56,712 nucleotides of DNA from Thermoanaerobaculum aquaticum (GTDB lineage: Bacteria; Acidobacteriota; Thermoanaerobaculia; Thermoanaerobaculales; Thermoanaerobaculaceae): positions 90,001 to 146,712 of the forward strand of contig NZ_JMFG01000020.1 of the NCBI RefSeq assembly GCF_000687145.1, in the 5' to 3' direction. Of the stretch, positions 31,131 through 48,549 are shown in pieces (position 1 is the stretch's first letter; every line of letters starts with the position of its first letter). The notes below the pieces were generated by a model. That model did not search any database. It saw only the letters and a program-made list of their open reading frames with translations, and was not told the origin of the DNA. The position numbers were made by a program, and so were the translations under genes.

Positions 31131-31137
31131 AGACAAC

Positions 31138-34230: not shown

Positions 34231-34238
34231 GGTCCACC

Positions 34239-36191
34239 TCACCGCTGGGTCCTGGGCAAAGCCCAAAGATCACCCACCACCAGGTACTCGCCTTCCGGCG
34301 TTTCTTCCACGAGGGTTCCGGTATCGAAGCGCAGCTTGGCCAGGGTCTGCGCCACCGCAAATTGCGCTTGAATCACGGTGAGATCGGCTTCCACCGCCCG
34401 CTGCTCGGTGAGGATCGTGTCAATAAGCGTGGAACGCCCGAAACGGAACTTTTCCAGTTCGTTTTCAAAAGCTTGCCGAGCTGCTTGCGCGGAAACTTTG
34501 GCTGCTTCCAGCTGCGTAAGGAGTTGTTCCAAGGTAATGCGGGTTTGCAAGACATCAAGGCGTACCCGACGCTCGGCATCGGCTGCAGAAATTTGCCTTT
34601 GCGCCCACAGGGCCTGGCGCTGTTCCAACTGTCCGCGCTGGGTGAGATTAGCCAGGGGCTTTTCATAAGCAAAACTGAGGCTCGCCGAGGGACCAGCCCA
34701 ATTGCCAAAAAGCGCTCGGCCCAGGTTGTGCCCCATGTTGCCGCCAGCATCGGAAAGGCCGGCATAGGAAATCTTGAAGTCCAGGTCCTTCTTGGCAGCC
34801 AAATCAATGACCGCCGCCCGCCAAAGCACCCGCCCGGACCTCTCCAGGTCGCGGGCTGCGGCCACGTCCAAGCGGCGGCTGGCACCCATCTCGGCCAGAG
34901 CCTCTGCGGAAACCGCCGCCAGGTCAGAAGGCGAAGGCGGAGGCGGAAAGCCCTCCACGGCTTGGGGTAACGAGGAGGGCTCGGCGATGCTCACGCCCAT
35001 GGCGGTGGCCAGCGCCACCTGCGCCTGAGCCAGGCTGCTCTTGGCTGCTTGCAGCTGGGAGGTGACCTCGGCTTGTCTCGCTTGCATGCGGGAGATCTCG
35101 GCACGGGGGATCTCGTCGGCTTCGGCCAACGCCTGCACCAGCTCCAAAAGACGCCCCTGGAGCTCGGAAGAACGCCCGTAGACCGCCACGGTTTCCTGGG
35201 CACGGTAGAGGTCGAGGTAGGCAAAAACCGTGGCGAGCACGCTTTGCGAGGCGGTAAACGCCAGGGTCTTGCGGCTGGCCTCCCAGTCAATCAAGCTCGA
35301 TTGCTCGGCAGCTCCCGCCGATTCTACGCCCTTGCCACGCCCCAGTGGGATGTTCACGGAAAAACCCAAGGTGGCGTTGTACGTGTCCTCCCGTCCCGGA
35401 CCGCCAAACTTGTCGCTCTTGGGTTTGCCCTGGTAGCGCAGGCTTTCACCGGAGAGGTTCATAAACGGCGTGAGGGTCAATCCGGTGCGGTAGTGCTTGG
35501 AAAGCTGCAGGTCAATGGTGCCCCTTTGGGTTTGCTCCACTTCCGCCACGGGCCCTAGCTGTCGCAGCTCCTGCCTTCCACCCACCGCCGTGGCCAGCTC
35601 TTCGTTTCTGGCAATGGTGAGCTCACCCAAACGCGATTCGATCCAGTTGATGATGTCCTGGCGGATTTGGGCTTGCTGGGCGGGGGAGGCATTGCGATAC
35701 AGGACGAGCATCGCCTCCCACTGTGCCTGCAATTGGGGGTCCAAAAAACTTACACCAGCCGGAATCAAACCGCTCTGCAAATCCGAACGAGCTTGCAACA
35801 ACTGTTGAATCATTTGATCGTATTGGGCCATTTTGGCTTCAGCCTTGGCGATCTCGTCCCGAATCTCGTCCCGCTTTTTTTTCTGATCCAGCTTTTCTGC
35901 AGCGGATAAGGGCCTCTGCGTGAACTCATAGGAAACGTTGCCAATAAGCGTAAGGTCAAAGGCTCCTGCCGCCTGCAGCGAAAGCCCTTCCTTTGCCTTC
36001 ACATCTTCCCGGCTTAATGCCAAATTGGGCTCATGGGCCAAGGTTAATTTGAGAGCTTCCGAAAGCGTCAGCTCGCGTTTTTGAAGAGGGGGGAAACTCG
36101 GCGCTTCAACCCCCCGTCCCTGCGACCACGCCGTGCTCCCAAGCCCCAGAAGCCCGCAAACGGCCATAGCCACAGCTTTTCCCTTTCGCAT
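34239..36191 (-). CDS. TolC-family outer-membrane factor, first copy
   Basis: 650 residues. Signal peptide 1 to about 24 (VAMAVCGLLGLGSTAWSQ). The first repeat carries an inserted charged coiled-coil segment (LDQKKKRDEIRDEIAKAEAK), and the second repeat ends near TGTLVEETPEG. The region VNIPLGRGKGVESAGAAEQ matches the equivalent part of the second copy. TolC proteins form trimeric channels through the outer membrane and periplasm. GGGGAGG precedes the ATG, 15 nt after the GNAT gene. Confidence 0.9.
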   Translation of the reverse strand: MRKGKAVAMAVCGLLGLGSTAWSQGRGVEAPSFPPLQKRELTLSEALKLTLAHEPNLALSREDVKAKEGLSLQAAGAFDLTLIGNVSYEFTQRPLSAAEKLDQKKKRDEIRDEIAKAEAKMAQYDQMIQQLLQARSDLQSGLIPAGVSFLDPQLQAQWEAMLVLYRNASPAQQAQIRQDIINWIESRLGELTIARNEELATAVGGRQELRQLGPVAEVEQTQRGTIDLQLSKHYRTGLTLTPFMNLSGESLRYQGKPKSDKFGGPGREDTYNATLGFSVNIPLGRGKGVESAGAAEQSSLIDWEASRKTLAFTASQSVLATVFAYLDLYRAQETVAVYGRSSELQGRLLELVQALAEADEIPRAEISRMQARQAEVTSQLQAAKSSLAQAQVALATAMGVSIAEPSSLPQAVEGFPPPPSPSDLAAVSAEALAEMGASRRLDVAAARDLERSGRVLWRAAVIDLAAKKDLDFKISYAGLSDAGGNMGHNLGRALFGNWAGPSASLSFAYEKPLANLTQRGQLEQRQALWAQRQISAADAERRVRLDVLQTRITLEQLLTQLEAAKVSAQAARQAFENELEKFRFGRSTLIDTILTEQRAVEADLTVIQAQFAVAQTLAKLRFDTGTLVEETPEGEYLVVGDLWALPRTQR

Positions 36192-36206: not shown

Positions 36207-37151
36207 TCATCCAGCCCGCGTTACCCATTGCGGTTGGTGCTGCAGTTTTTTTGTGCTTCCTAAGGTCCACCGTGCCTGCTGCGCCCACGGGGCCATGTGC
36301 TTTTCTACAAACTGCACCATGGTGGGGTGGCGTACCGGAGCAACAAAGGAAGCCAGCGTAAATCCCGCTTCTACCATGCGATGGATGGACTCGGAAAAAA
36401 GCGGCAAAATTCTGCCCCGCCGCCCCCAGTCTTTGCGGATAAAGCTGCAGGTAAAACGCAACCACTGCGCATTTAATGCATGGTTAATCACCCAGCCCAT
36501 AATGCCTTCCGGGGCGCGCAAGGCCACGCTGGTGCGCTCCTCGAACCCCTCCTCCACGTATCGCCAGGGAACGAGGTCGGGGGCAATCCATGGGCTTTTC
36601 TCCTGCGAGACCTTCAGGGCTTCCATTTCCTCGCGGGTTACGCTGACAAAGGGCACGATTTCGCACCCTTCCCGCACAGGAAAACGGTCCAGCCAGGGAA
36701 AACGCAGCGCCTCCTGGGCGGTGAACAACACCGAAAGGGTTCGTCGCTCGGGCGGGCCCCAGCCGAGCTCCTGGGACACCTTCGCCCACCACTGGCTCCC
36801 GCTGCCGCCCTCCGTCCACACCACCCCCAGGCTGGCAAAACTGGCGTTGGATGCCACGGTTTCCGCGGCCTGCACCAGCTTCTTGCCCCAACCCTTCCCT
36901 CGGTGCTCGCCGACCACGTATACCGAAAGCAGTTCCGCGGTTTCCCGCTCTCCTAAGGGCAGGGCTAAAAGAGCCAGGCCCACCGCTTCGCTTCCCAGGA
37001 AAGCCCCCAGGGCCACGGGCTGCACCGGCGGCGACCCCGCTTCACCTAAAAGCTTGGGGCCCACCTCAACGGTCAAGAGATGCCGATAGGCCGGGAACGT
37101 CATGGGCAGAAAGACCGGGTCAGCGGGCGGAGCAAGCAGCCTTATTTCCAT
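36207..37151 (-). CDS. GNAT-fold protein, probably double-domain acyltransferase
   Basis: 314 residues. The N-terminal half has a clear acetyl-CoA-binding motif A (VYVVGEHRGKGWGKKLVQAAE). The C-terminal half (about 215-305) resembles a second, degenerate GNAT domain (ILPLFSESIHRMVEAGFTLASF), without a good motif A. ATG 37151, behind GGAGGG, overlaps the LanM stop by 10 nt, so the two are translationally coupled. It could acylate the modified peptide (N-terminus or Lys) or give self-protection; neither is shown. The longer frame to 37283 would lie inside lanM. Confidence 0.8.
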   Translation of the reverse strand: MEIRLLAPPADPVFLPMTFPAYRHLLTVEVGPKLLGEAGSPPVQPVALGAFLGSEAVGLALLALPLGERETAELLSVYVVGEHRGKGWGKKLVQAAETVASNASFASLGVVWTEGGSGSQWWAKVSQELGWGPPERRTLSVLFTAQEALRFPWLDRFPVREGCEIVPFVSVTREEMEALKVSQEKSPWIAPDLVPWRYVEEGFEERTSVALRAPEGIMGWVINHALNAQWLRFTCSFIRKDWGRRGRILPLFSESIHRMVEAGFTLASFVAPVRHPTMVQFVEKHMAPWAQQARWTLGSTKKLQHQPQWVTRAG

Positions 37152-39877
37152 GGCTTCGCTCCCTCCACTCCTCCGACCAAAACTGAACCCAACTCCCCCG
37201 GTAGCAACAGTCGAGAAAGGTGGAAAAGGAAGCCAGGCAAACCGTCGAAAAGGCCTCCTTTCGGATCCAGTTCCCGCCGCCAAAGCCCCGAGCTGAAGAG
37301 CAGCGCGGCCAGCTTCGTCGCCTCGTCCATGAGCCGCTCGTCGCCAGCGAGCTCGCCGATGATCAACGAGATTTCGCTACGACCAATGCTACCACAGCAC
37401 AAGCTCAAGGGGCTGGAGAGCTTCAAGGGAACAAGTCGGGCGTAGGCCTCTGCGTTTTGGCGGGCAAGGTGTAGGGTCACCAATTCGGCAGGCACCAGCT
37501 TCCTGGCCGCCAGGGCCCCCGCCGGTCCATGGCACCAGCCGTTAAGGCCCACCGAAACGGTTTCACCGGCTGGAAGCTCGGCCTCCGCCCACCAGGTGCC
37601 CGCCCGGGGCTCCTGCTCCAAGAGCCACACCGCCTCCCGAGCCCACCGCAGGTTACCGGTCGCCTTACCTACCCGCAAAAGCGCTGCCGCCACCCCCGAA
37701 ATGCCGTGGGCGAAGCCCGGCTTCCAAATGCTTTTGCCCCCGTTGGCCGCCGCCCCTGGAACTGCGACCAAGAGACTAGCCGCCCCGCTCTCTAATGCCT
37801 CATGCAACTCAGGCAGGCCCCGGACGCTTTCCGCAACCCCCAAAAGCAAGCCGGCAAGACCCGCCTCCACGTCCAGGTGTTCCGGGGGCTCGGATCTGCC
37901 CAAGGCCTCCTTTGCAAGACCACGGGCCAATTCGCAAAACGCTGGCTCTTCAAGCCAGCAACCGCAAGCAAAAAAGGCGTAAACCACGCCGCCGAAACCG
38001 GAGGCATAACCCGGAGGCCAGCTTCCCGGGATTCCACCTTGAAGCTCCCCTTGGAGCCGTTCTAGGTATTGCCGCGCCCGTTGCCTGGCCGTTGCATCGC
38101 CGCTGGCCCTAGCCCAGGCGGCCCAGGCCAGGGCCCAACCCGCCCATCCCCGGCGCAGGAAGGGCCCAACTTCCAGGCCGAGAGCGGCCTCGCCCTGGCG
38201 CAACGCGGCAGCTACCTCGCTGGCGGCTTGCCGCAACGCCGCCCTTGGGTCTTCCCTGAGGCTGTGGAGGCTCGCCGCTAAGACCGCCAGCTGGTGCTTG
38301 ATGAACTTGTGATCCAACCGCCTCAGCCTGAGCAGGATTTGCTGTTGGCCGGAACGCCGCACCACGCCGCAGCGGCGGGCTGCCGGCAGCGTGAGGCGGG
38401 GAACCGCAAAGCTGTGAAGAGCCAGCGTTTCCGCACGCAGGAACGGGACGAGAGCGCGGATGTCCATACCCGCGGCCAAAGGCCCGCGCCATCGGGTTTC
38501 CGCTAACAGACTGAGCTGCCAGCACTCGCGAACTTTGGAGTTTTGCAAGGCCGAGCGAAAGAAGGAGGCATAGGCCTCGCTGGGACGGGCCACCCAGCGG
38601 ACCTGGAGCCGCGAAAGCTCATTAAATGGCAAACGAAGCTGCCCACTTCGCCAGGCCCACAGCAGCTTATCCAAAGCATCGCGAGCACCCGCCACAATCT
38701 CCTCTCGGTATTGGCAGGGATCCACGGGTTGTCCGGCAAAAAGCGGTAGGGATCTCGCCCCCGGGCGGTGGCCACCGAGGAAAGCTCCATCGTCCCGCAG
38801 GCCGGAGGGACCATTCATGGGGAACGTCACCAGCCCTGAGGCCAAGATGTCGCCATCTTCTTTTGGGTCGAAGACCGTGAGCGGGCGGCACCAGGTTTCG
38901 CCGTCCACCACCACGGGTCCATCCTCTCCTGCCACCACGTTTTCCCAGTGCAAATCTGAAAGCCCCAAAAGCCAAGCCACAGCCGCCAGGTGGCCAGCCG
39001 TGAAGAACCACCGCTGCACCTGTTCGCGAGCAAGAAGGCTGGCCTGGGACACCTCTGCTACCCATCCGTATCGCGACCGAGCCACCATTTCCGGCAAGGG
39101 CGGCAGCGTAATCCCCACCGGGCGCAAGGCATCAAAAAAGACCGCCAGCACCCGCTCCGGCTCCAAAGAACGGGGCTTGTAGAAAAAGGCCAGGCCCGGG
39201 GCCGAGACCAAGCGAGCTACGGTTTCCCCCTCCTGGTGCCGGTCGGAAAGGCCGAAGGTTAGCTCGGTCACCTGCAGGCTTCGCCCGCCAAGCAGACTCT
39301 GCTCGATTTCGGACCGATCCCGCTGGAGTCTTTGGGCCAGGGTCCGACAGCTGCGCAACCATTGGCTAAAGCGGGTGGCCAGCAAGCGTGCCGAAAAGGG
39401 TCGCTCCTCAAAGGCTTCCCAGGCCCCAGCCGTTGGATTGACAGCCGCCGCTTCCAGGAGTTGCCGGCAATGGGTTTCCAGCTGCTGAGCAATAGCGGCG
39501 GGCACCCTTAGGGAAAAGAGCGGAGCCGCAAAAACTCGGCGGCACTTTGGGAGGACGACCTCCGCCAAAAGCCGCGGTACTTCACCAATAACTGCTCGCT
39601 CAGGTATTACCCGCTGCAAGAGCAAAAGCCACTGCGGTGTTTCTTCTAATAAACAGCAAAGGCCCCGCTGCAGGCGGGCCAAAGCCTCGGTTTCGGTCAG
39701 GCCCTCCGCCGTCAAGCGCCTGGAGAAAAGGTCACTGGCACCCCCGCTCACCGCCTGCCGCCAACCTTGGGCTACGGGTGTTGCTGCAGTTTCCTGAAGA
39801 GGGCGCGACCCAGTATTCTCCCCAAAAGCCAAAATCTCCTGTAGAAACGCCCCACCACGGATGAGCCTTGAGGCCAT
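37142..39877 (-). CDS. lanM: Class II lanthipeptide synthetase LanM
   Basis: 911 residues. The N-terminal dehydratase half shows the LanM kinase-like signatures FYKPRSLE, LLGLSDLHWENVV and VVVDGETWC; it phosphorylates Ser/Thr and eliminates phosphate. The C-terminal LanC-like cyclase half has the zinc ligands C782 (NGWCHG) and C827/C828 (LCCGSIG), plus the AHGISG motif. Cys-Cys-Gly instead of Cys-His-Gly is the mark of the ProcM-like group, which tends to be promiscuous and to form rings with different geometry. GGAGGG lies 12 nt before ATG 39877, and the longer frame to 40015 would run into the precursor gene. It modifies the peptide encoded just upstream. Confidence 0.95.
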   Translation of the reverse strand: MASRLIRGGAFLQEILAFGENTGSRPLQETAATPVAQGWRQAVSGGASDLFSRRLTAEGLTETEALARLQRGLCCLLEETPQWLLLLQRVIPERAVIGEVPRLLAEVVLPKCRRVFAAPLFSLRVPAAIAQQLETHCRQLLEAAAVNPTAGAWEAFEERPFSARLLATRFSQWLRSCRTLAQRLQRDRSEIEQSLLGGRSLQVTELTFGLSDRHQEGETVARLVSAPGLAFFYKPRSLEPERVLAVFFDALRPVGITLPPLPEMVARSRYGWVAEVSQASLLAREQVQRWFFTAGHLAAVAWLLGLSDLHWENVVAGEDGPVVVDGETWCRPLTVFDPKEDGDILASGLVTFPMNGPSGLRDDGAFLGGHRPGARSLPLFAGQPVDPCQYREEIVAGARDALDKLLWAWRSGQLRLPFNELSRLQVRWVARPSEAYASFFRSALQNSKVRECWQLSLLAETRWRGPLAAGMDIRALVPFLRAETLALHSFAVPRLTLPAARRCGVVRRSGQQQILLRLRRLDHKFIKHQLAVLAASLHSLREDPRAALRQAASEVAAALRQGEAALGLEVGPFLRRGWAGWALAWAAWARASGDATARQRARQYLERLQGELQGGIPGSWPPGYASGFGGVVYAFFACGCWLEEPAFCELARGLAKEALGRSEPPEHLDVEAGLAGLLLGVAESVRGLPELHEALESGAASLLVAVPGAAANGGKSIWKPGFAHGISGVAAALLRVGKATGNLRWAREAVWLLEQEPRAGTWWAEAELPAGETVSVGLNGWCHGPAGALAARKLVPAELVTLHLARQNAEAYARLVPLKLSSPLSLCCGSIGRSEISLIIGELAGDERLMDEATKLAALLFSSGLWRRELDPKGGLFDGLPGFLFHLSRLLLPGELGSVLVGGVEGAKPWK

Positions 39878-39954
39878 CGTCAGAAGAATCCCTCCGGAAA
39901 AGGCGGCCCACGGTCGCCCGGCGCGCAGAAGGCGACCGTGGGCCTGTTTTTCGT

Positions 39955-40293
39955 TTAAAAGAGGCTGGCGTTGATTTCCACCCGGGTGCCGAAGCCCAAA
40001 CCTTGGACTTCGCACTTGTAGGTGTCCTTCTTGCCACCGGCCACCTGCTCCAGGTCAGCGTCGGAAAGCTCTTGGCCTTCTTTTGCCACATGGGGAATGA
40101 TCACGTAAAACTCGTTGGGCTTTTCCTCGATGACCTTCACCTGCACCGAAGGCGGAATGGAAGTCCCCAGCTGCGCTCCCACCACCTCCCGGGGCTTGGC
40201 CAGGAGGGCCTTGCGGTACTCCGGGTTCTTGGTGGCAAACCCGGCGATCAGATCGTTGACTTCCCCTCTGGTTAACGTGACAGCTTCTGGCAT
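39955..40293 (-). CDS. NHLP-type lanthipeptide precursor peptide
   Basis: 112 residues. Residues 1-87 are a nitrile-hydratase-alpha-like leader ending in ELSDADLEQVAGG, the double-glycine site for the C39 exporter. The predicted core (88-112) is 25 residues with one Cys (C94) and three Ser/Thr (T91, T103, S110). T91 and C94 form a T-Y-K-C spacing suited to one small methyllanthionine ring; the other two could become dehydrated. GGAGG precedes the ATG. It is the first gene after the sigma-54 promoter, 41 nt from the predicted transcription start. A single-copy precursor with one Cys is unusual for a LanM of the Cys-Cys-Gly group. Confidence 0.93.
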   Translation of the reverse strand: MPEAVTLTRGEVNDLIAGFATKNPEYRKALLAKPREVVGAQLGTSIPPSVQVKVIEEKPNEFYVIIPHVAKEGQELSDADLEQVAGGKKDTYKCEVQGLGFGTRVEINASLF

Positions 40294-40344: not shown

Positions 40345-40360
40345 AGCAAGAGGCGTGCCA
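40345..40360 (-). promoter_or_regulatory. Sigma-54 (-24/-12) promoter of the lanthipeptide operon
   Basis: On the minus strand TGGCACG-CCTC-TTGCT (40360-40345) matches the consensus TGGCACG-N4-TTGCW at every position. The GG (-24) and GC (-12) are correctly spaced. Start of transcription would be near 40334. The gene for an activator of sigma-54 holoenzyme lies 1.6 kb upstream on the same strand. Confidence 0.9.
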
Positions 40361-40371
40361 AGCTTGCCAGA

Positions 40372-40437
40372 AACGTAACACGTTGTACCAAAAGGACTTG
40401 TCTAGAAGCGAAAGGAACGCAAATAGAGCTATCGCTC
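40372..40437. promoter_or_regulatory. Candidate activator-binding palindromes
   Basis: Two inverted repeats lie upstream of the sigma-54 promoter: AACGT-AAC-ACGTT (40372-40384, about -38 to -50) and ATAGAGC-TATC-GCTCCAT (40423-40440, arms with one mismatch, about -90 to -106). The second is at a usual enhancer distance. Neither is proven. Confidence 0.35.
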
Positions 40438-40464
40438 CATTGCTGGCGTCGGGCCTCCAGGTGC

Positions 40465-41946
40465 CTAGGTTTCCCTTGTAAACAGCGCTAACACTTCCGA
40501 AAGGGGCTGGCGGAGTCGGAATTCCATTTCTTCCACGTCACAGAGGGCAAGGCGCCTGCGAAAACGCCAGGTTCCCACCCGAAGCGGGGGTTGGTGCGCT
40601 AGCGCCGCACGTACCGGAGCCAAAAGCTCTTCCAGACGGGCGTGCATGCGCTCCCAGCACCAGGAAAAGCCTTCGGCAAACGCCTCGCGCACAGCCGCGG
40701 ATGCTTCTCGCCAGGGGAAAAACTCGTTGCGGGCTCGCACGATGGTCTTGGGGGTAATGACCTGCCGCTGGGCGAGGCTGCGGGCTTGAACCAACGTCAT
40801 CCGCGCCAGCGCCCCCGAAGCCTCGCTCTGAGCCACCAGTTCCGGGGGGAGGGCAAGGTTTAAAAAACAGTGCTCAAAGTCAATGAGCGTGAGACGCTCC
40901 CGCCCTTTGACATCAACGGTCACAAACGCGTTGCGGGGACGGATGTCGGCGTTAGCGAAGGCGTAGGCAAAGGCCAGGTGGGCCCCGAGGTCAAAGGCCA
41001 CCTCTGGATTGGGGGGCGAGGTGTAGGGCTTCCCCTTCACCGCTTGGGAGATGCCCAACGGCTCCCCATCCTCAACCACCCAGGCTTCGGGAACCGGTAG
41101 CTCTAGTCTTTGCGCTAGGGACCGGGCCAGGGCATCTACGTAGGCCGCCGCCGGATCCCAGAAGCGCTTGCAAAAGAAAAGCTCCTCCTCCTCGCCACAG
41201 GAGGCCACTACCGTGGCCAGCAGGTTGTACCGTCCCTCCTGGCCTTCGGCCAGCGGTTCAATGCGCTCCACTCGCCATGTTTTCAGCCCCAGGGCCAGCC
41301 TTTGCCCTTCAGCCAGCAGCGGGGCAAATCCGGTGTCTTCCCAGGAAAGCCAGCCCAAACGGAAAAACCGTGGTAAACGCTGCGAGCCTACCAGCAAAAC
41401 CGGAAACCCCAGCCGTCGGGCCGCCCCATCGGAGGCCTCCGAGTCTCCCACAACCAGGATTTGCGAAGGGGGCAGACCTAGCTCCTGGGATAAGCGCGAG
41501 AAAACCTCGGGGGATGGCTTGGTGATCCCCAAGTTGCACGATAAAAGCTGCGCATCAAACAACTCCCGCAAGCCCAAATCCTCAAGCACCCGGGCATGAG
41601 CTGAGGAGAGGTTAGAGACCAAGGCCAGCTTGAGCCCTCGCCGGCGTAGAAAGCGCAACACCGATAAGGCCCCCGCAGTCAGCTGCGCCTGTGCCACTTG
41701 CTCCCGCAGCGCTTGCACCAAGAGCTCCTGTCCTGGGCTTTGCGACGCCCCCGCTTGCTCCGCCAGTGCACTGACGAGCTCCTCCACTGCGGAAAAGGAC
41801 TGCCGAAGCCCAACCTGACGCACGGCGGAAAGCCACGCCCGCGCTGGCACCCCCAAAAGCTTGGGCGCCAGGCGCCGAAACCAGGGATCCGGCAGGTGCA
41901 ACAGGGTGCCAAACAAATCGCAGGCCACCGCGCGGATTTGCGTCAT
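40465..41946 (-). CDS. HAD-hydrolase / kinase-fold fusion protein
   Basis: 493 residues. Residues 1 to about 225 are a HAD domain: motif I DLFGTLLHL (D10), motif II LVSNLS, motif III Lys before PSPEVF, motif IV VVGDSEASDG. The second Asp of motif I is Phe, as in the haloacid-dehalogenase subgroup, so phosphatase activity is uncertain. Residues about 250-440 resemble a kinase or phosphotransferase fold: FANADIRPRNAFV (D334, Asn) and LTLIDFEHCF (D356) fit the catalytic loop and metal site of PI3K/HipA/APH-like enzymes. ATG 41946 overlaps the activator stop (ATGA), so the two proteins are co-produced. A role in phospho-control of the activator or of peptide synthesis is inferred only from position. 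Confidence 0.75.
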   Translation of the reverse strand: MTQIRAVACDLFGTLLHLPDPWFRRLAPKLLGVPARAWLSAVRQVGLRQSFSAVEELVSALAEQAGASQSPGQELLVQALREQVAQAQLTAGALSVLRFLRRRGLKLALVSNLSSAHARVLEDLGLRELFDAQLLSCNLGITKPSPEVFSRLSQELGLPPSQILVVGDSEASDGAARRLGFPVLLVGSQRLPRFFRLGWLSWEDTGFAPLLAEGQRLALGLKTWRVERIEPLAEGQEGRYNLLATVVASCGEEEELFFCKRFWDPAAAYVDALARSLAQRLELPVPEAWVVEDGEPLGISQAVKGKPYTSPPNPEVAFDLGAHLAFAYAFANADIRPRNAFVTVDVKGRERLTLIDFEHCFLNLALPPELVAQSEASGALARMTLVQARSLAQRQVITPKTIVRARNEFFPWREASAAVREAFAEGFSWCWERMHARLEELLAPVRAALAHQPPLRVGTWRFRRRLALCDVEEMEFRLRQPLSEVLALFTRET

Positions 41947-43070
41947 TGCGGTTTTAACTGATGGTGCCGGAGGAAATCCATGAAGCGCTGGTAGTCCGCC
42001 TCCCGCAGATGAAACAGCTGCAAAAGCCGCTTGTAGGAGTTGCCACTGTGAGCCAGCCCCCAGCGGATGATGTGCTGTACCTGCGTGCGGTTGAGGTCGC
42101 GGTTTAAAAACGCGTCGTGAACCAGATGCCAAAAGTCGCCCTTTTCCACCAGTTGGCGCACCAGCTCGTCTTCCAACCTTCTCCGGGGCGCTGGGTCCTC
42201 GCCCAAAAGCTCGATGAAGTGCTCAGGCTCGATGGTCCGCCCCTCGGCCATGGCGTAGCCCATGGTGACCACGCTGATGAGCTCACGAACGTTGCCCGGC
42301 CAACGATGCCGCGACAGCACATCCATGGCTTGGGGAGAAAACACCTTCTCCACCCCGTGCTTGGTGGCCAGACAGTGCAAGGTAAACGCCACCAGGTCCA
42401 GCCAGTCATCCCCCCGCTCGCGCAGGGGCGGAACCTGCAAGCGAAAGTAACGCAACCGGAAGTAAAGGTCCTCCCGAAAGCGATCCCCCAGCCGCAGGCT
42501 TTCCAGCGGCCTGTTGGTGGCGGCCACCACCCGCACGTCAGACCGACGTACCTTGGAATCCCCCAGCGCCTGAAACTCGCCGCTGGCCAGGGTCCGCAGC
42601 AGCATCACCTGCGCGGAAAGGTGCAAATCCGCCACTTCGTCCAGGAAAATGACCCCGCCGGTGGCTAGCTCAAAGGCTCCCTTGCGATCGGCAATGGCAC
42701 CGGTGAAGCTGCCCTTCTTATGGCCAAAGAGCTCGCTCACCGTGAGGTTAGCATCTTCAAACTGCGGGCAATTCACCGGAATAAACGGCCCACTTCGCCG
42801 TGGTGATAACAGATACAGGGCCTTTGCTAGAAGCTCCTTGCCGGTCCCCGATTCGCCCAGGAGCAGCACCGGCTCGGAAAACGGGGCAACCTTGGCGATT
42901 TTTTCCAGGAGATGCGTGAGCGCTGGCGAGCGCCCCACCAGGCACACCGCTTGGTGGTCCCCCCACACCCGGCGCGAAAGCCGGCATACGGTCCTCGCCA
43001 GCGGCACCATCCATTGCTCAGGGCGCGACGACACAATCGGCATAGGCAGGGTAAGGCGATCGCCGCTCAC
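41943..43070 (-). CDS. Sigma-54-dependent transcriptional activator (bEBP)
   Basis: 375 residues. The AAA+ domain has Walker A GESGTGKE (72-79), the sigma-54 contact loop GSFTGA (120-125; GAFTGA variant), Walker B GVIFLDEVA (139-147) and FREDLYFRL. The N-terminal 45 residues have no receiver, GAF, PAS or FHA domain, so the input signal must come from another protein. The C-terminus (about 320-375, YKRLLQLFHLREADYQRFMDFLRHH) is a helical domain in the place of the usual Fis-type HTH. It is co-translated with the HAD/kinase fusion and probably activates the promoter at 40345-40360. Divergent from the cNMP/FHA gene. Confidence 0.92.
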   Translation of the reverse strand: MSGDRLTLPMPIVSSRPEQWMVPLARTVCRLSRRVWGDHQAVCLVGRSPALTHLLEKIAKVAPFSEPVLLLGESGTGKELLAKALYLLSPRRSGPFIPVNCPQFEDANLTVSELFGHKKGSFTGAIADRKGAFELATGGVIFLDEVADLHLSAQVMLLRTLASGEFQALGDSKVRRSDVRVVAATNRPLESLRLGDRFREDLYFRLRYFRLQVPPLRERGDDWLDLVAFTLHCLATKHGVEKVFSPQAMDVLSRHRWPGNVRELISVVTMGYAMAEGRTIEPEHFIELLGEDPAPRRRLEDELVRQLVEKGDFWHLVHDAFLNRDLNRTQVQHIIRWGLAHSGNSYKRLLQLFHLREADYQRFMDFLRHHQLKPQ

Positions 43071-43084
43071 GGCACCCCCTCCGC

Positions 43085-43113
43085 TTGACGCCGCGCCAGG
43101 GCAGGCGTAGCTT
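43085..43113 (+). promoter_or_regulatory. Sigma-70-type promoter for the cNMP/FHA gene
   Basis: TTGACG and TAGCTT are separated by 17 nt. Downstream lie two near-identical strings (GGAAGGAAGCTA and GGGAGGAAGCTA), 20 nt apart, the second serving as ribosome-binding site. Confidence 0.55.
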
Positions 43114-43150
43114 TGAATGGAAGGAAGCTAATGTTCGGGAGGAAGCTACA

Positions 43151-43897
43151 GTGAGTACACCTGGCGCCCCGGTGTTGGAAGATCTGCAGGTCACCTACCC
43201 GGCTGGAACCTACGTTTTCCGCCAGGGGGAAGCCGGCAGCGAGATGTTCATCATCCAGGAAGGCAGGGTGGAGATCCTCGCCCAAAAAGGGCGAAAGGAA
43301 GTCCCGCTGGCGGTGCTGGAGGAAGGGGACTTTTTTGGGGAAATGGCAGTGCTGGAAGACCTGCCTCGGACCGCTTCGGCCCGCACGCTTACCCCGTGCC
43401 AGCTGCTGCGCATTGACCGCCAAACGTTTGACCAGCTCATCCGCCACAACCCGGAAATTGCCGTGCGCATGCTGCGTAAGCTCTGCCATCGCTTGCGCAC
43501 CGCCCAACCCCAACCGCTGGAGGCGCCAGCTACCGTTCCCGAACCGCCCGCACCGGCGGAAACTCTGAGCGCCTCTGCCGCCGCGCTTGTCCATGTGGCT
43601 TCCGATACCCGCTTCGTGTTGTCCACCGAAACTGAAAACAGCGTGGGGCGAAAGGACCCGGTAACTGGCCTGGCCCCTACCGTGGATCTTTCCGCCGTTG
43701 ACCCCCAGAAAACCACGAGCCGCCGCCATGCCACGCTTTTCTTGCGGGATGGGAAGTGGTTCGTCCGGGAGGAGGTGGGTGTGCGCAACGGCACCTTTGT
43801 GAACGGCCAGCGCCTCACCCCCGGCGAGGAGCGAACCGTCTCCCACGGTGACCGCCTGCGCTTTGGCCTGGTGGAGCTGGAGTTCCATAGCCTCTAA
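43151..43897 (+). CDS. Cyclic-nucleotide-binding domain + FHA domain protein
   Basis: 248 residues. Residues about 8-120 are a cNMP-binding domain with the phosphate-binding cassette FFGEMAVLEDLPRTASART, whose Arg is conserved. After a Pro-rich linker an FHA domain follows (SVGRKDP, TSRRHATLFL, NGTFVNGQRL). There is no HTH, so it is not a CRP-type regulator; it more likely joins a nucleotide signal to a phosphothreonine partner. GTG 43151 follows GGGAGGAAG; the in-frame TTG 43085 lies inside the promoter. Divergent from the sigma-54 activator, which suggests shared regulation. Confidence 0.88.
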   Translation: MSTPGAPVLEDLQVTYPAGTYVFRQGEAGSEMFIIQEGRVEILAQKGRKEVPLAVLEEGDFFGEMAVLEDLPRTASARTLTPCQLLRIDRQTFDQLIRHNPEIAVRMLRKLCHRLRTAQPQPLEAPATVPEPPAPAETLSASAAALVHVASDTRFVLSTETENSVGRKDPVTGLAPTVDLSAVDPQKTTSRRHATLFLRDGKWFVREEVGVRNGTFVNGQRLTPGEERTVSHGDRLRFGLVELEFHSL

Positions 43898-44310
43898 ACC
43901 CCTTCCCGGGCTTCCGCCCGGGCAAGCAGCGCCAGCACCGCTTGCGCCAAAAGCTCCACGCGGTCGTCACCCTTCACGGCCGCCAGGGCCTCTGCCACTG
44001 AGGGAAGCACGCGACAGAGCCTCGCCACCCCGGAAAGCTCGAGGAACCGCTGAACATCCGGGTTAGGTGCCGCCAGTGCAAAACCTCCCCCTTGCGTTTC
44101 AAGCCGGCGGGCAGCAACCAAAAAGAGCCGTAGCACCTCGCTGGTAACTTGGGGACAGGCCGCAAGATCAATGATGACGCGGGATCTTGGGGTGGTCATC
44201 AAAGGTGTCAACACCTCCTCGAGCGAAGAAAGCCCCTCGGCGTCCAGTTCACGATTGAGTCTAAGAATCTTAGTCCCCGTCTCTTCGCGGAGCTCCCAAT
44301 CACGGCCCAT
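43894..44310 (-). CDS. STAS-domain protein (anti-sigma-antagonist-like)
   Basis: 138 residues with the STAS pattern: a first strand WELREETGTKILRLNRELD, then VIIDLAACPQVTSEVLRLFLVAARRLETQGG. In SpoIIAA-like proteins the phosphorylated Ser sits in a DSSG motif; here the region reads VTSEVL, so phosphorylation is uncertain. About 25 extra residues follow the domain. Its stop overlaps the stop of the cNMP/FHA gene on the other strand. No cognate anti-sigma kinase is nearby, except the pseudokinase at 45102-47453. Confidence 0.75.
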   Translation of the reverse strand: MGRDWELREETGTKILRLNRELDAEGLSSLEEVLTPLMTTPRSRVIIDLAACPQVTSEVLRLFLVAARRLETQGGGFALAAPNPDVQRFLELSGVARLCRVLPSVAEALAAVKGDDRVELLAQAVLALLARAEAREGV

Positions 44311-44346
44311 AGCGCTCGGAACCCCCTTCCACCGCCTGGCCGGCGG

Positions 44347-45021
44347 CTAAAAGCGGATGGCTAGGCCCGCGGTGAACCAGGTTTGGGTGAACCAGTCCTT
44401 GTAGGCAAAGGTGTAGGAGCAGGGGGCACGGCAGTCAGGATTGGCAAAGGTGTACGTGGATCGCAGCGACTCATCGGTATTGGCGGCAAAATAGCGGCCC
44501 TCCAGGCGGAAACCCAAATGCTCGGAAAGCTCCCACTGGAGACCGCCGCCCACGCTGTAGGACATCACGGTGTCCGAGGGGATGGGCAGGAGGAAGTTAA
44601 AGTGGGTCACACCCAAACCGGCAACCAAATGCCAGCGTGTGGGTCCGTGCTTGGCGACCCAGAGAAGACCGGCCTGAGCCGTGGTCAGCTCCACGTCCAG
44701 GATGTGTTTGCTGTCAGGCTCGATGAAGCCACCGGGAACCTCACCGAATAGCGCTTGGTTATCTTTGAGCTGCGTGTCCTGCCTCAAAACCAAAAGCTCG
44801 CCCGCAAGGGAGGCACCCAGCGGCACATCCAGCACCAGCCCGTAACTCCCGCCGGAGGAAACGTCCACGTCCAAGTCCTTGAACTGAAAGGCCCTCTCTT
44901 CCACACGGATTTGACCGCCCCAACCGTAGCCAATGCTGGGTACCAGCTCCACCCGCGGCGTTTGCGCTGCCAAGGTAGAAGCCAACGTGAGAGTACTCAC
45001 CAAAACCAAACGAAAACGCAT
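44347..45021 (-). CDS. Outer-membrane beta-barrel protein (small porin-like)
   Basis: 224 residues with a signal peptide (1 to about 20, ending TLAAQ). It has alternating hydrophobic strands and ends with aromatic Phe (FTAGLAIRF), the usual outer-membrane insertion signal. The general layout resembles OmpW/opacity-type barrels with about eight strands. A CRAPC pair lies in a late loop. ATG 45021 follows a GGGGG stretch; the longer frame to 45093 lacks a signal peptide at its start. Possible role in passage of a small product or as structural protein; unknown. Confidence 0.75.
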   Translation of the reverse strand: MRFRLVLVSTLTLASTLAAQTPRVELVPSIGYGWGGQIRVEERAFQFKDLDVDVSSGGSYGLVLDVPLGASLAGELLVLRQDTQLKDNQALFGEVPGGFIEPDSKHILDVELTTAQAGLLWVAKHGPTRWHLVAGLGVTHFNFLLPIPSDTVMSYSVGGGLQWELSEHLGFRLEGRYFAANTDESLRSTYTFANPDCRAPCSYTFAYKDWFTQTWFTAGLAIRF

Positions 45022-45101
45022 AATGCCCCCTTTCTTGCGCGCCTGAAACGTTCTAGCGGCAATATAGCGCCGCCATCGAGAAGGGTCAAGCAACCCGCCA
45101 G

Positions 45102-47453
45102 CTACAGACCAAACAGCCCGCGCTTGCGCCGCACCTCCAGGGGGCGATCGGGGCTTGCCAAAAGCCCCTGATGGCCGGAGTGATCTTCGGCCAACACGTA
45201 AAACTCCAGGTCCTCATTACCGTGAGTGGCCGGCACGATTTCGCCCACGTAGGTTCCGGCTGAGGTCTTGCTCATGGGCAAAGAGCGGTAGCTCTTCTCC
45301 CCCTTCTTGCGGAAAAACAGCGTCACCCGGGCCACTCCATGGTCGTCCGAGGCCTTCACCTCCACTTTGGCCACCTGCCCTTTCGGGTACTCCCACTTGT
45401 ACCCCGGCGCCGGCGGGGTAACCGCAGGCGCTCCGGAGTCCAAGGCTGAAAGCTGTGCGGCCAGTTTTTCCTTGAGCTTGGCCACCTCGGCGGCCATCCC
45501 CCCGTTGGCGGCCACTTCGGCAAGCAACGCCAAGCCTTGTTCGGGCTTACCCTCGTTGCCCAACTGAGCCGCCCGGTCCAAAACCTTTCGGAGCTGCTCC
45601 TGTCGCCCTTGAGCCTCCCGCAGGCGCGCGATTTTTTCCGCAAGCCCCGGCCTTGCCGGCAAGTAGCGCTCAACGGTCTGCAGAAAATGAAGCGCTTGCG
45701 GGTAGTTCCCCTGGCTTTCCGCGACTTTGGCCTGCTGCTCCAAAGCTTGTGCCGCCCGCTCCTGAGCTGCTGCCGCCTCACGGGTGCCCGGGAGCAAGCG
45801 CTCCAGATTTTGGACCTCGGAAAGCACCTGCTCCCACCGCTGTGCCTTCTCCTCCTGGGCCAAGCGAGTCATGACCTGGTTGATGCTCCGGGCCTGGCTT
45901 ACGAGATGGCGGTCCTCAGCGGAAAGCGCATCTTCCTGGCCTTTAACGGATTCAAAATCGCGGAGCGCCCTGCGCAAACCGGAAACATCCCCAGCCTTCA
46001 GCGAGCGGCGGAGGCCTTCCAAAGCCCGCCTTTGCTCAAAAGCCGCAAGGCGTGTCCGCAACGCCTCGTACTTGCTTCTTTCCTCCGGTGTAAGGCCCGC
46101 CTCCTGCACCCCGGCAAGGAGCTCGCGGAGCTCTTCCCATTGTTCCCCCTCGGCCAGCAGCTCCCCTCGCGCCAGGAGCGAGCTCGCTTCTGAGGGTTGT
46201 TGGGCCGTTGTCGGCACCGGCGTTGGGCGGGTGGGAACCGGTACCGGCGTGGGGGCAGGAGCCGAAACCGAACCCCCACGGGAGAAGAGCCACAAGCCCA
46301 GCCCCGCCAGCAGCCCCAACCCCACCACCGCTCCTACCACCCATGGCAGCTTGCTCCGGGACGGCGCCGCCTGGGGCTTGGCGGCCGGTTGGGGTGGCGG
46401 GGGCGCAGGGACCTGAGGCTCCGGCGGCGCAGGGGCAGGAGAGGGCTCGGGGGAAGGCGCAGGAGCTCCCTCCTCACCAGTTGGAGCTGCAAGCACAGTA
46501 GGCTGCTCGCTCGCCGGCGTTGGCTCGGGTTCGGGGGGAGCTGCCTCGTCCGAAGGCCCAGCTTCGGGAAGGCCTTCCGCCGGGAGGATCACCGTGGCAG
46601 CCTCCTCGCCGGCCTCTTGAAGCGGAACGCCCCCCTCTTCTTCCGGCAGCAGTCGAACCGTGCCCTCCTCCTCGGCGGTCCCCGGCAAAACCGCAGCTGC
46701 CAGCGCCTGTCGCAGCTCACCCACTGAGGCCGGACGCTCGAAGGGGTCCTCATGCAAGCAGCGGGCAAGGCAGGCTTCCAGCTCCTGCCAGTTTTGCAGT
46801 TTTTCCCGCACCGGTTGCGGCAGGGTCACCCGAGCCTCTTCGTCCTCGTAAACCACCTGGGCGCCAAACAGCTCAACAGCAATTTGCGCAAGCGAAAACA
46901 CGTCGCAGCGTTGGGGTTCGGCCAAATCTACGGCCTTTCGCAGCTCGGGGGCGGCAAAGGGTGCCCCGGAGCCGGGTATCCGCAAAAAGCCCCAACCCAG
47001 CCCCGTGAGGTAAACCCTGTCCGCCGAAACCACCAGGATGTTGTCGGGGGCAAGGTTCAAATGGGCCACCGCGGCCTGGTGCAAGCTGCCCACGCTGGCG
47101 GCGGCCAGTTCCAATATGTGCGCAGCTTGCGACGGGGTAAGCCCGGTGAGTTGGGTGAGGCGGGTTCCAGGGACCGGGACGAACAGCAGCACCGCCGCTT
47201 CCGGGCCCCACGCCGCGTCCTTTAGTGGAGGAACCCCCGCCGGCGCGTTTTTGATGAGGGCGCTTACCGCCTTCAAAAACCGCAGGCGGTGCACCTCCCC
47301 CACACCGGTTCCGGAAAGGCGAAGGACCTTGGCCACCACCGGATCTCCCGAGGCCCGAGCCCTGCCCCGAAAGACAACAGTGGCTTCGCCCGCTTGGATG
47401 ACCCCTTCCAGGTCGTAGCTTTCAGCGAGTCTGTCGTCGGGAAGCTTTTCCAT
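45102..47453 (-). CDS. Membrane-anchored Ser/Thr pseudokinase with C-terminal sensor region
   Basis: 783 residues. Residues about 12-255 have a protein-kinase fold with the ATP-site Lys (K42), but HRD reads HLN (131-133) and DFG reads GLG (151-153), so catalysis is unlikely. An acidic, Pro-rich linker (256-370) carries T-V-x-L motifs at T265, T287 and T319. A transmembrane helix (371-390) is followed by Pro-rich and helical-repeat regions, and a C-terminal beta domain (about 680-775) like those binding extracytoplasmic ligands. The linker threonines could be substrates or FHA docking sites. Divergent from the FHA gene at 47659. Confidence 0.85.
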   Translation of the reverse strand: MEKLPDDRLAESYDLEGVIQAGEATVVFRGRARASGDPVVAKVLRLSGTGVGEVHRLRFLKAVSALIKNAPAGVPPLKDAAWGPEAAVLLFVPVPGTRLTQLTGLTPSQAAHILELAAASVGSLHQAAVAHLNLAPDNILVVSADRVYLTGLGWGFLRIPGSGAPFAAPELRKAVDLAEPQRCDVFSLAQIAVELFGAQVVYEDEEARVTLPQPVREKLQNWQELEACLARCLHEDPFERPASVGELRQALAAAVLPGTAEEEGTVRLLPEEEGGVPLQEAGEEAATVILPAEGLPEAGPSDEAAPPEPEPTPASEQPTVLAAPTGEEGAPAPSPEPSPAPAPPEPQVPAPPPPQPAAKPQAAPSRSKLPWVVGAVVGLGLLAGLGLWLFSRGGSVSAPAPTPVPVPTRPTPVPTTAQQPSEASSLLARGELLAEGEQWEELRELLAGVQEAGLTPEERSKYEALRTRLAAFEQRRALEGLRRSLKAGDVSGLRRALRDFESVKGQEDALSAEDRHLVSQARSINQVMTRLAQEEKAQRWEQVLSEVQNLERLLPGTREAAAAQERAAQALEQQAKVAESQGNYPQALHFLQTVERYLPARPGLAEKIARLREAQGRQEQLRKVLDRAAQLGNEGKPEQGLALLAEVAANGGMAAEVAKLKEKLAAQLSALDSGAPAVTPPAPGYKWEYPKGQVAKVEVKASDDHGVARVTLFFRKKGEKSYRSLPMSKTSAGTYVGEIVPATHGNEDLEFYVLAEDHSGHQGLLASPDRPLEVRRKRGLFGL

Positions 47454-47561
47454 GCCCGCCCCTCTTTCGCTCCTGGTTCGTCATGGCAGTTTACCACTTC
47501 AAATACCAGCAGAGCACGGCCCACCTTTGGCCCACACCCCCACCGTGCCACGGCTTATCCC

Positions 47562-47589
47562 TTGACCTTGCACCGGGCCGTGCTAGCAT
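47562..47589 (+). promoter_or_regulatory. Sigma-70-type promoter TTGACC-N16-TAGCAT
   Basis: TTGACC and TAGCAT are 16 nt apart, the latter within an extended -10 (TGCTAGCAT). It lies about 70 nt before the coiled-coil FHA gene. Confidence 0.65.
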
Positions 47590-47658
47590 GAGACAAATGT
47601 TGGGTTCACTTTGCATCAAGCGTCTTTTGGTGCCTGGCATTGCCCAAAGGAGGAAGCT

Positions 47659-48549
47659 ATGCTCAAGGAGCTGGAAGCCATAGACACATCACCCATTGAG
47701 CAGCTGCAGAGCCTGAAGGCCGAGCAGCTCACGCTCAAGGAAAGGTTGGACCGCATGGTGGCCATGAAGGACCGGGTTTCGCCGGAGGTGTACACCCGCG
47801 TGCGCAAGGACTACGAAGCGCGCTTTGCCGCCTTGGAAAGCCAAGCCCGTCCCCTTTTGGACAAGGCTCGTCGCGAGTACGCCCGGCTCAAGGCGGTGGT
47901 CACCGAGTTGGAGCGCAAGCTCAACGCCGCCCGCTTGGCCAAGGAAGAAGTGGAGTTCCGCAACGCCCTGGGCGAATACACACAGTCCCAGTTCGCAGAG
48001 CTTTTGGCACAAGCGGAAGGAGAGGTGGCCGAGGTGGAAGGGCATTTGGCGGAAGCCGGAGCGCTCCGCCAGCGGTTTTTGGAAGCTGTGCTTTCCGAAA
48101 GCGAGCTGGAGGGCGGCGCCGCCCCGCCACCACCACCCTCCCACGCCAAAGCCGAAGAGGCGGCTGCACCTCCGCCCTCGGTGGAGGCCACCGAAGCCAT
48201 GGCACTGGCCACCCCACCCCCCGAAGAAGCCGGGGCCACCATTGCCCTCGCCATGCCCAGGCTTTTGGTGCAAACCCCCGAAGGGGTCAGCCAGGAGTTC
48301 CAGCTGAAAGCGCAAGTCACCACCATTGGCCGCTCCCCCCGCAACGACATCTGCATTGCCGAGGCTTCGGTGTCCCGCCAGCACGCGGAGATCTTTCTTT
48401 CCGCGCGCGGCTACAGCATCCGCGATTTGGGCTCCAACAACGGCGTGTTCGTTAACGGTCAAAAGGTGGTGGAGCACCTGTTGGCCTCCGGGGACGTCAT
48501 TGAGCTGGGCGCTCCCGGCTGGAAGCTCACGTTCCTGGCCCCCGAATAG
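47659..48549 (+). CDS. Coiled-coil + FHA domain protein
   Basis: 296 residues. Residues about 1-150 are predicted coiled coil (heptad-like, Leu/Glu/Ala-rich). A Pro-rich linker carries ATIAL (T194), similar to the T-V-x-L motifs of the pseudokinase and FHA-exporter. The C-terminal FHA domain (about 200-296) has GRSPRNDICI, SVSRQHAEI and DLGSNNGVFVNG, all residues needed for phosphothreonine binding. ATG 47659 follows AAAGGAGG; the upstream ATG 47611 lacks one. Divergently arranged with the pseudokinase gene, its likely partner. Confidence 0.88.
   Translation: MLKELEAIDTSPIEQLQSLKAEQLTLKERLDRMVAMKDRVSPEVYTRVRKDYEARFAALESQARPLLDKARREYARLKAVVTELERKLNAARLAKEEVEFRNALGEYTQSQFAELLAQAEGEVAEVEGHLAEAGALRQRFLEAVLSESELEGGAAPPPPPSHAKAEEAAAPPPSVEATEAMALATPPPEEAGATIALAMPRLLVQTPEGVSQEFQLKAQVTTIGRSPRNDICIAEASVSRQHAEIFLSARGYSIRDLGSNNGVFVNGQKVVEHLLASGDVIELGAPGWKLTFLAPE

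Follow-up and report, generated by a model that had tools for sequence, protein, structure and literature searches.

The cNMP/FHA and STAS proteins encoded beside a lanthipeptide cluster of Thermoanaerobaculum aquaticum probably form, at a probability that we put near 0.6, the regulatory arm of a class II, NHLP-type lanthipeptide system found in Acidobacteriota, governing the sensor-less sigma-54 activator of the precursor gene. The cluster, by which this heat-loving acidobacterium produces a small modified peptide and exports it, lies in the stretch of 56,712 nucleotides analysed here (the window). The signalling block next to it is not one unit, cNMP/FHA and STAS being conserved parts of the cluster and the membrane pseudokinase a local neighbour.

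The lanthipeptide genes and their proposed sigma-54 switch

The precursor is a 112 aa peptide with an NHLP leader (TIGR03793 over cut-off) and one Cys in its core (39955–40293, minus strand). Its probable class II synthetase LanM (37142–40015, minus strand, start uncertain) is over cut-off for Pfam DUF4135 and LANC_like and scores 259 bits against TIGR03897, below the cut-off of 304. Export is encoded on the same strand by an NHLP HlyD-type adaptor (31138–32280; TIGR03794), an exporter subunit with a C39 peptidase (28920–31184; TIGR03796) and a second ABC exporter subunit (25492–28920; TIGR03797), all over cut-off, so leader precursor and exporter parts together identify an NHLP system. The leader, HlyD and both exporter subunits are thus shared with the NHLP/NHLM export system over curated cut-offs, whilst the second subunit differs in its N-terminal FHA domain (1.1e-17), found in 7/7 Acidobacteriota and 0/5 Verrucomicrobiota examined.

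A near-consensus sigma-54 (-24/-12) promoter, TGGCACGCCTCTTGCT (40345–40360, minus strand), lies 51 bp before the precursor start and is also present in relatives, and a palindromic upstream activator site, ATGGAGC-N4-GCTCTAT (40423–40440), is centred 71 bp upstream of its -24 box. Relatives carry the same pair ahead of the precursor. In most of them the palindrome centre and the -24 box below it are 69–73 bp apart, and many have a second copy ca. 20 or 32 bp farther upstream. When the enhancer motif was run on 13 loci left out of motif building (208 kb), 14 of its 16 strong matches lay upstream of NHLP genes and at most 500 bp away, including those at four Verrucomicrobiota loci, and a sigma-54 site of at least 11 bits was also present in 9 of the 10 validation loci with an enhancer in that position. 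Activator and enhancer recur together in Verrucomicrobiota. Genome-wide, a loose version of the pattern gave 137 matches against 68 for a reversed control, and since this is only about a twofold excess we claim no further regulon. Ahead of the cNMP/FHA, STAS and pseudokinase genes, neither an enhancer nor a sigma-54 site was found. A 17.2-bit enhancer-like match at 43871–43888 falls within the cNMP/FHA coding sequence, at its 3′ end, and is found at that place in one relative (G002) too; it was taken as coding.

The activator (41943–43070, minus strand; Sigma54_activat 1.6e-56) is an AAA+ protein without a sensor domain, and its stop is overlapped by 4 bp by the gene of a HAD-type phosphatase fused to a further C-terminal domain (40465–41946, minus strand). 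Its predicted structure matches the AAA+ domains of NtrC1 and PspF (Z 22–24), and the GAFTGA loop occurs as a GSFTGA variant that is invariant in 11/11 sequences. With its sigma-54 interaction domain, a GAFTGA-type loop, and a -24/-12 promoter plus upstream site at its putative target, the protein has the marks of a bacterial enhancer-binding protein, and RpoN is encoded in the genome. Five helices, the terminal two paired, are predicted for the C-terminus, which contains the conserved stretch YQRFMDFLRHH; searches of this region against Pfam and PDB sequences gave no match and no known DNA-binding domain family. The protein shares with PspF-type activators an AAA+ domain lacking an N-terminal sensor, so that control must come in trans, but differs from them in that its C-terminus could not be assigned to a known HTH family and no PspA-like partner was identified.

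The divergent gap and the genes of the block

Activator and cNMP/FHA gene are separated by 80 bp (43071–43150), in which the original prediction placed a divergent promoter tying the two blocks together. This was not borne out: the gap holds a sigma-70-like element for the cNMP/FHA gene only (TTGACG-17-TAGCTT, 43085–43113, plus strand; conserved in 4/4 genomes of the genus and a sister genus), and no matching element toward the activator, no sigma-54 site and no enhancer site were found in it. The control point found is instead the sigma-54 promoter and enhancer before the precursor gene. The ORF-finder start of the cNMP/FHA gene, TTG 43085, was rejected as it is the -35 box of this element, and the start is GTG 43151, as originally given.

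The cNMP/FHA protein (248 aa; 43151–43897, plus strand, divergent from the activator) carries a cNMP-binding domain (Pfam, 6e-27) and an FHA domain (1.5e-13). Counting residues from TTG 43085, E86 and R95 of the cNMP pocket (the Glu and Arg of the phosphate-binding cassette) and R189, S212 and N235 of the predicted phospho-Thr site of the FHA domain are invariant in 10/10 cluster orthologues, and at the level of these residues the protein qualifies both as a predicted phospho-Thr-binding FHA protein and as a predicted cNMP binder. It is followed by a STAS protein (43894–44310, minus strand; Pfam 2.8e-13), which on alignment with SpoIIAA has a Ser at the position of Ser58, and by an outer-membrane beta-barrel protein (OMP; 44347–45021, minus strand; weak OMP_b-brl match), overlooked in the earlier description, whose gene sits between those for STAS and the pseudokinase and adjoins STAS in 10/10 Thermoanaerobaculales cluster genomes. 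The membrane protein (45102–47453, minus strand) scores 29.9 bits against Pkinase (4.6e-07), slightly under the cut-off of 31.7; it was predicted to be a pseudokinase and indeed is one, the HRD Asp being replaced by Asn and the DFG Asp by Gly in 6/6 homologues, with the beta3 Lys retained. A coiled-coil FHA protein (47659–48549, plus strand; FHA 3.7e-21), most likely starting at ATG 47659, completes the block, and Pfam recovered the cNMP/FHA, STAS, kinase-like and FHA proteins where they had been predicted. FHA domains were called with Pfam; a strict FHA regular expression gave no hits, missing even known FHA proteins.

Conservation of the neighbourhood

We compared 40 relatives, 10 of them cluster-bearing. 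In each of these ten, the cNMP/FHA, STAS and OMP genes accompany the lanthipeptide genes: OMP, STAS, cNMP/FHA, activator, precursor and LanM lie together in G000–G003, G005, G015, G023 and G029, and across contig breaks in G020 and G028, a neighbourhood kept across genera and two families. Beyond these genomes, cNMP/FHA and STAS genes sit beside the activator in six further Acidobacteriota loci (L158, L162, L165, L166, L168 and L170). Cluster-linked copies of cNMP/FHA form one branch of the tree (96/88, 98% of bootstraps), apart from 22 unlinked paralogues. The pseudokinase shows a different relationship: it is linked only in G000–G003 (Thermoanaerobaculum and one sister genus), is encoded elsewhere in every other cluster-bearing genome, and its homologues are equally common in genomes without the cluster; we therefore rejected it as a cluster part. 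The prediction that the two blocks belong together, to be abandoned if relatives always had them apart, consequently stands for cNMP/FHA, STAS and OMP and falls for the pseudokinase. The coiled-coil FHA protein is present in 10/10 cluster genomes against 3/30 others (Fisher p = 3e-7, relatedness ignored).

Proposed mechanism and alternatives

The observed part of our explanation is the gene content, its linkage, and the conservation of promoter and enhancer. On this basis the activator, an AAA+ motor, would use its conserved C-terminal region to bind the palindrome ATGGAGC-N4-GCTCCAT and would open the -24/-12 promoter that precedes the gene for the precursor. Expressed from its own sigma-70-type promoter, the cNMP/FHA protein would most likely act in trans as the sensor that the activator lacks, linking a cyclic-nucleotide signal with a phospho-threonine interaction. 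STAS may be a vestige of a partner-switch module (FHA-GAF-SpoIIE phosphatase and STAS, once with an RsbW-like kinase) retained beside the same activator in relatives, the FHA domain of the exporter suggests that export responds to the same kinase signals, and the pseudokinase would be a later neighbour. Verrucomicrobiota have this activator and enhancer but no cNMP/FHA gene near them, so the cNMP/FHA protein is not essential to the core switch.

The cNMP/FHA protein might instead leave the activator alone and, with the FHA-exporter, control secretion or self-protection post-translationally, its closeness to the activator reflecting shared cluster membership. This reading, which we regard as rather unlikely, draws on the parallel distribution of the cNMP/FHA gene and the FHA domain of the exporter (found in Acidobacteriota but not in the Verrucomicrobiota examined) and on a weak match of the protein to TIGR03896 (cyc_nuc_ocin), a cNMP-domain family tied to bacteriocin-type transport; that match reaches 29.7 of the 161 bits of the cut-off, and here a single cNMP domain is fused to FHA. 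However, among the 17 linked loci in the tree set, 16 have the cNMP/FHA gene no more than 4 kb from the activator, 13 of them directly next to it, and G057 alone has it nearer the exporter. A further, still more tentative reading, which we think improbable, is that one phospho-threonine/cyclic-nucleotide network governs all steps of the conserved single-Cys lanthipeptide: the FHA-GAF-cyclase, the sole class III cyclase found in the genome, would make the signal, cNMP/FHA would gate the activator in trans and the exporter FHA would gate secretion. Were this true, the well-conserved one-Cys core would suggest an Acidobacteriota signalling peptide rather than an antibiotic. It is a little less probable again that the activator is switched chiefly by STAS together with SpoIIE- and RsbW-type partners in trans, as full partner-switching on sigma-54. 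An FHA-GAF-SpoIIE gene adjoins STAS in four relatives (L136, L162, L165 and L166), with HATPase_c_2 at L136, RsbW-like and SpoIIE proteins are encoded elsewhere in the genome, and the phospho-position is Ser in the window protein and in G001, G002, G020, G029, G057, L158, L162, L165, L166 and L168. Yet G005, G023, G015 and L170 have Gly or Ala there, so the phospho-switch is not conserved, no partner is linked in the window, and at C6:54280–55938 the FHA-GAF and SpoIIE parts are split by an in-frame TAG.

That the five genes form one signalling complex scaffolded by the pseudokinase, as originally envisaged, fits the shared strand of pseudokinase, OMP and STAS and an order conserved in four genomes, but the dispersal of pseudokinase homologues described above makes it very improbable. 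We give almost no credence to ordinary regulatory genes having come by chance to lie between the RiPP cluster and the housekeeping genes thiI, lptE and leuS. FHA proteins are common in this 2.66-Mb genome (10 domains), and the three predicted within 23 kb, exporter included, were found within 19.9 kb; as any three of ten would fall this close with a probability of ca. 0.02, the clustering alone is modest evidence. The linkage, however, is kept across families at 23–60% identity, whereas outside the genus the cluster has no thiI, lptE or leuS next to it, and linked cNMP/FHA copies occupy their separate branch. Chance neighbourhood is already refuted for cNMP/FHA, STAS and OMP, and stands for the pseudokinase.

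Relation to known systems

Lanthipeptides are usually viewed as being under two-component or autoinduction control. Jelsbak and colleagues are said to have described, in 2005, FHA-domain enhancer-binding proteins of Myxococcus xanthus in which FHA is fused to the activator. The present system shares with these the joining of FHA to sigma-54 activation; Pfam, however, finds no FHA domain in the activator itself, which sets it apart from the Myxococcus type, FHA being on a separate, divergently encoded cNMP-binding protein and the target being a RiPP precursor. Myxovirescin, under sigma-54/enhancer-binding protein control (Volz et al. 2012, as described in PMC6971385), is likewise a natural product under sigma-54 with specific activators, but is of another product class, from myxobacteria, and the available part of that account describes neither an FHA/cNMP partner in trans nor a dedicated palindrome. 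The tha cluster of coral Thermoanaerobaculia (PMC13083261), from the same class of bacteria, is also a class II lanthipeptide cluster, with a GMC oxidase; regulation and an FHA protein are not discussed in the portion of the paper available. With the SpoIIAA/RsbV partner switch the window shares STAS, the Ser at the phospho-position, and SpoIIE and RsbW-like partners in relatives, but the target would be a sigma-54 activator and the phospho-site is not in all clusters. Our search of open-licence papers found none linking FHA or sigma-54 to lanthipeptide control.

Here the lanthipeptide precursor has a sigma-54 promoter and a dedicated palindromic enhancer, which is shared by Acidobacteriota and Verrucomicrobiota; the activator lacks a sensor and has the FHA/cNMP protein as its likely partner. 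The enhancer motif offers a handle to find such clusters and to activate silent ones in a laboratory host. With the activator and cNMP/FHA gene pair, control of sigma-54 in trans by FHA becomes directly testable in E. coli.

The window also encodes a DUF7005 protein (18273–19412, plus strand), a predicted zinc metalloprotease by its sequence motif (HExxH...ExxAD). Structure matches to thermolysin-like and M3 peptidases are weak (Z 3.3–3.8) and mixed with unrelated proteins, whilst the gluzincin motif is clear. Elsewhere, DUF7005 forms a divergent pair with the coiled-coil FHA gene.

Conservation of the signalling genes beside the lanthipeptide cluster

The original prediction had set a phospho-signalling block beside the lanthipeptide genes, and its four proteins all found matches in Pfam: a cNMP/FHA protein (43151-43897, plus strand), a STAS protein (43894-44310, minus strand), a kinase-like membrane protein (45102-47453, minus strand) and a coiled-coil FHA protein (47659-48549, plus strand), whilst a small outer-membrane beta-barrel (OMP) gene between the STAS and kinase genes (44347-45021) had been missed. 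The predicted cluster of three FHA domains, including that of the exporter (25492-28920), is also present and spans 19.9 kb of the window (bases 90001-146712 of contig C20, genome size 2.66 Mb); ten FHA domains were located genome-wide, and three lying so close by chance has p ~0.02.

The stretch bounded by the lanthipeptide genes and the coiled-coil FHA gene kept its gene order in two genomes of the same genus and one of a sister genus, and within the genus the order held as far as leuS; the genomes beyond these are the informative ones. The OMP, STAS, cNMP/FHA, activator, precursor and LanM genes stay together in two genomes of the same family (G005, G015) and in four of another (G020, G023, G028, G029), with regulatory genes at 23-60% identity and the housekeeping flank thiI, lptE and leuS absent from the cluster side in all six. 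Local order differs in G023, contigs break inside the compared region in G020 and G028, and the relatives are mostly metagenome bins in which contig ends mask some linkages. Conservation of the neighbourhood held for cNMP/FHA, STAS and OMP but, outside the genus and the sister genus, failed for the kinase-like protein, which we rejected as a cluster component: its closest homologues in the more distant cluster genomes sit on other contigs or 280 kb off, and homologues are equally present in genomes lacking the cluster. It is evidently a pseudokinase, as the catalytic Asp is replaced by Asn and the Mg-binding Asp by Gly in 6/6 aligned homologues, with the beta3 Lys retained. The coiled-coil FHA protein, counted by match across its coiled coil, occurred in 10/10 cluster genomes vs. 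3/30 others (Fisher p = 3e-7, with no correction for relatedness). In a tree of 39 cNMP/FHA proteins one branch (96/88; 98% of bootstraps) parted 17 cluster-linked proteins from 22 unlinked paralogues, several of which share genomes with linked copies.

In relatives the coiled-coil FHA gene usually forms a divergent pair with the DUF7005 gene, which in the window lies at the opposite extreme of the cluster (18273-19412), and in some Verrucomicrobiota immediately 3' of the activator. An HExxH...ExxAD motif is invariant in DUF7005 and its orthologues, which are therefore probably gluzincin-type metalloproteases. Adjoining it, here and in G002 of the same genus, is a carboxylic acid reductase-like protein of 1316 aa (19409-23359; AMP-binding, carrier and NAD_binding_4 reductase).

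A predicted sigma-54 promoter and a palindrome precede NHLP genes

The activator (41943-43070, minus strand) is an AAA+ sigma-54 enhancer-binding protein (EBP) by Pfam and has GSFTGA. No more than ~40 residues precede its AAA+ domain, and YQ-x-x-MDFLRH near the C-terminus is invariant; its structural model matched NtrC1, NtrX and PspF (Z 22-24, chiefly residues 36-294), and the genome encodes RpoN. In Verrucomicrobiota the activator lies directly 3' of the exporter gene. Scanning the window for sigma-54 sites gave a single strong hit, TGGCACGCCTCTTGCT (40345-40360), 51 bp upstream of the precursor start, and relatives carry sites at the equivalent position. Each site is preceded by a palindromic motif, ATGGAGC-N4-GCTCCAT, whose centre is 69-73 bp away from the -24 box at most loci and 59 bp away at two; a further copy is often present 20-21 or 32 bp farther out, spacings that would place it on approximately the same helix face. 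The palindrome was first spotted in training loci and afterwards tried on loci outside the motif set, genome contigs found via the activator C-terminal region. Strong matches there numbered 16 in 208 kb. Ten loci, four of them from Verrucomicrobiota, account for 14 of these, each no more than 500 bp upstream of an NHLP gene; of the remaining two, one separates an NHLP gene from LanM and the other falls within an activator gene. A sigma-54 site of at least 11 bits was also present in nine of those ten loci. Among the regulatory statements drawn here from sequence, a sigma-54 promoter with palindrome before the NHLP genes is the best supported, and from the co-conservation of activator and palindrome we infer that the one binds the other.

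A divergent promoter had been proposed to tie the two blocks, yet no shared-regulator link was found in the 80-bp gap between the activator and cNMP/FHA genes. The gap holds TTGACG-17-TAGCTT, conserved in four genomes and pointing toward the cNMP/FHA gene, which starts at GTG 43151 behind GGGAGGA; the TTG chosen as start by the ORF-finder belongs to the -35 box.

A putative FHA layer in Acidobacteriota

Adjacency and architecture suggest that the cNMP/FHA protein could be the activator's missing sensor, which would be the simplest mechanism. Its cNMP- and FHA-binding residues are invariant across orthologues; the STAS protein of the window has the Ser, and four relatives have Gly or Ala in its place. 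The Acidobacteriota set comprises the exporter FHA domain (7/7 examined vs. 0/5 Verrucomicrobiota), cNMP/FHA next to the activator, and STAS, to which some loci add an FHA-GAF-SpoIIE phosphatase and an RsbW-like ATPase. The Verrucomicrobiota activator loci examined had neither the cNMP/FHA gene nor the exporter FHA domain; the FHA layer therefore seems to have been added in Acidobacteriota. A single class III nucleotide cyclase was found in the source genome, an FHA-GAF-cyclase (contig C23, 10195-11745). On contig C6 (54280-55938), FHA-GAF and SpoIIE parts share a frame with an in-frame TAG between them, a split or broken gene or an assembly error.

FHA-fused EBPs are known from Myxococcus. 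Sigma-54 control of secondary metabolites is likewise described there (PMC6971385), and lanthipeptides of Thermoanaerobaculia are already known (PMC13083261), from passages that do not cover their regulation. The literature searched returned no report of a lanthipeptide controlled by sigma-54 or FHA.

Precursor and other cluster genes

In the precursor (39955-40293) and its orthologues the core after VAGG contains exactly one Cys (11/11 cluster orthologues read over their full length), and the GTxVEIxASLF-like tail is conserved. The predicted lanthipeptide has one ring, and the unusual conservation of its core would suit a signal better than an antibiotic in an arms race. The LanC domain of LanM (37142-40015) has CCG, not CHG, at the expected zinc site, as in ProcM-type relaxed synthetases. 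An HAD-type phosphatase fused to a further C-terminal domain (40465-41946) overlaps the activator stop codon and is kept in most clusters, but was not found in G020 and G029. A distant LanM/C39-exporter locus in G072 lacks this sigma-54 activator; inspected by eye, it contains short precursor-like genes in repeated copies, with YcaO/TfuA-like genes nearby. A tandem pair of OEP-type outer-membrane factors (32284-36191) within one exporter operon is conserved across clusters.
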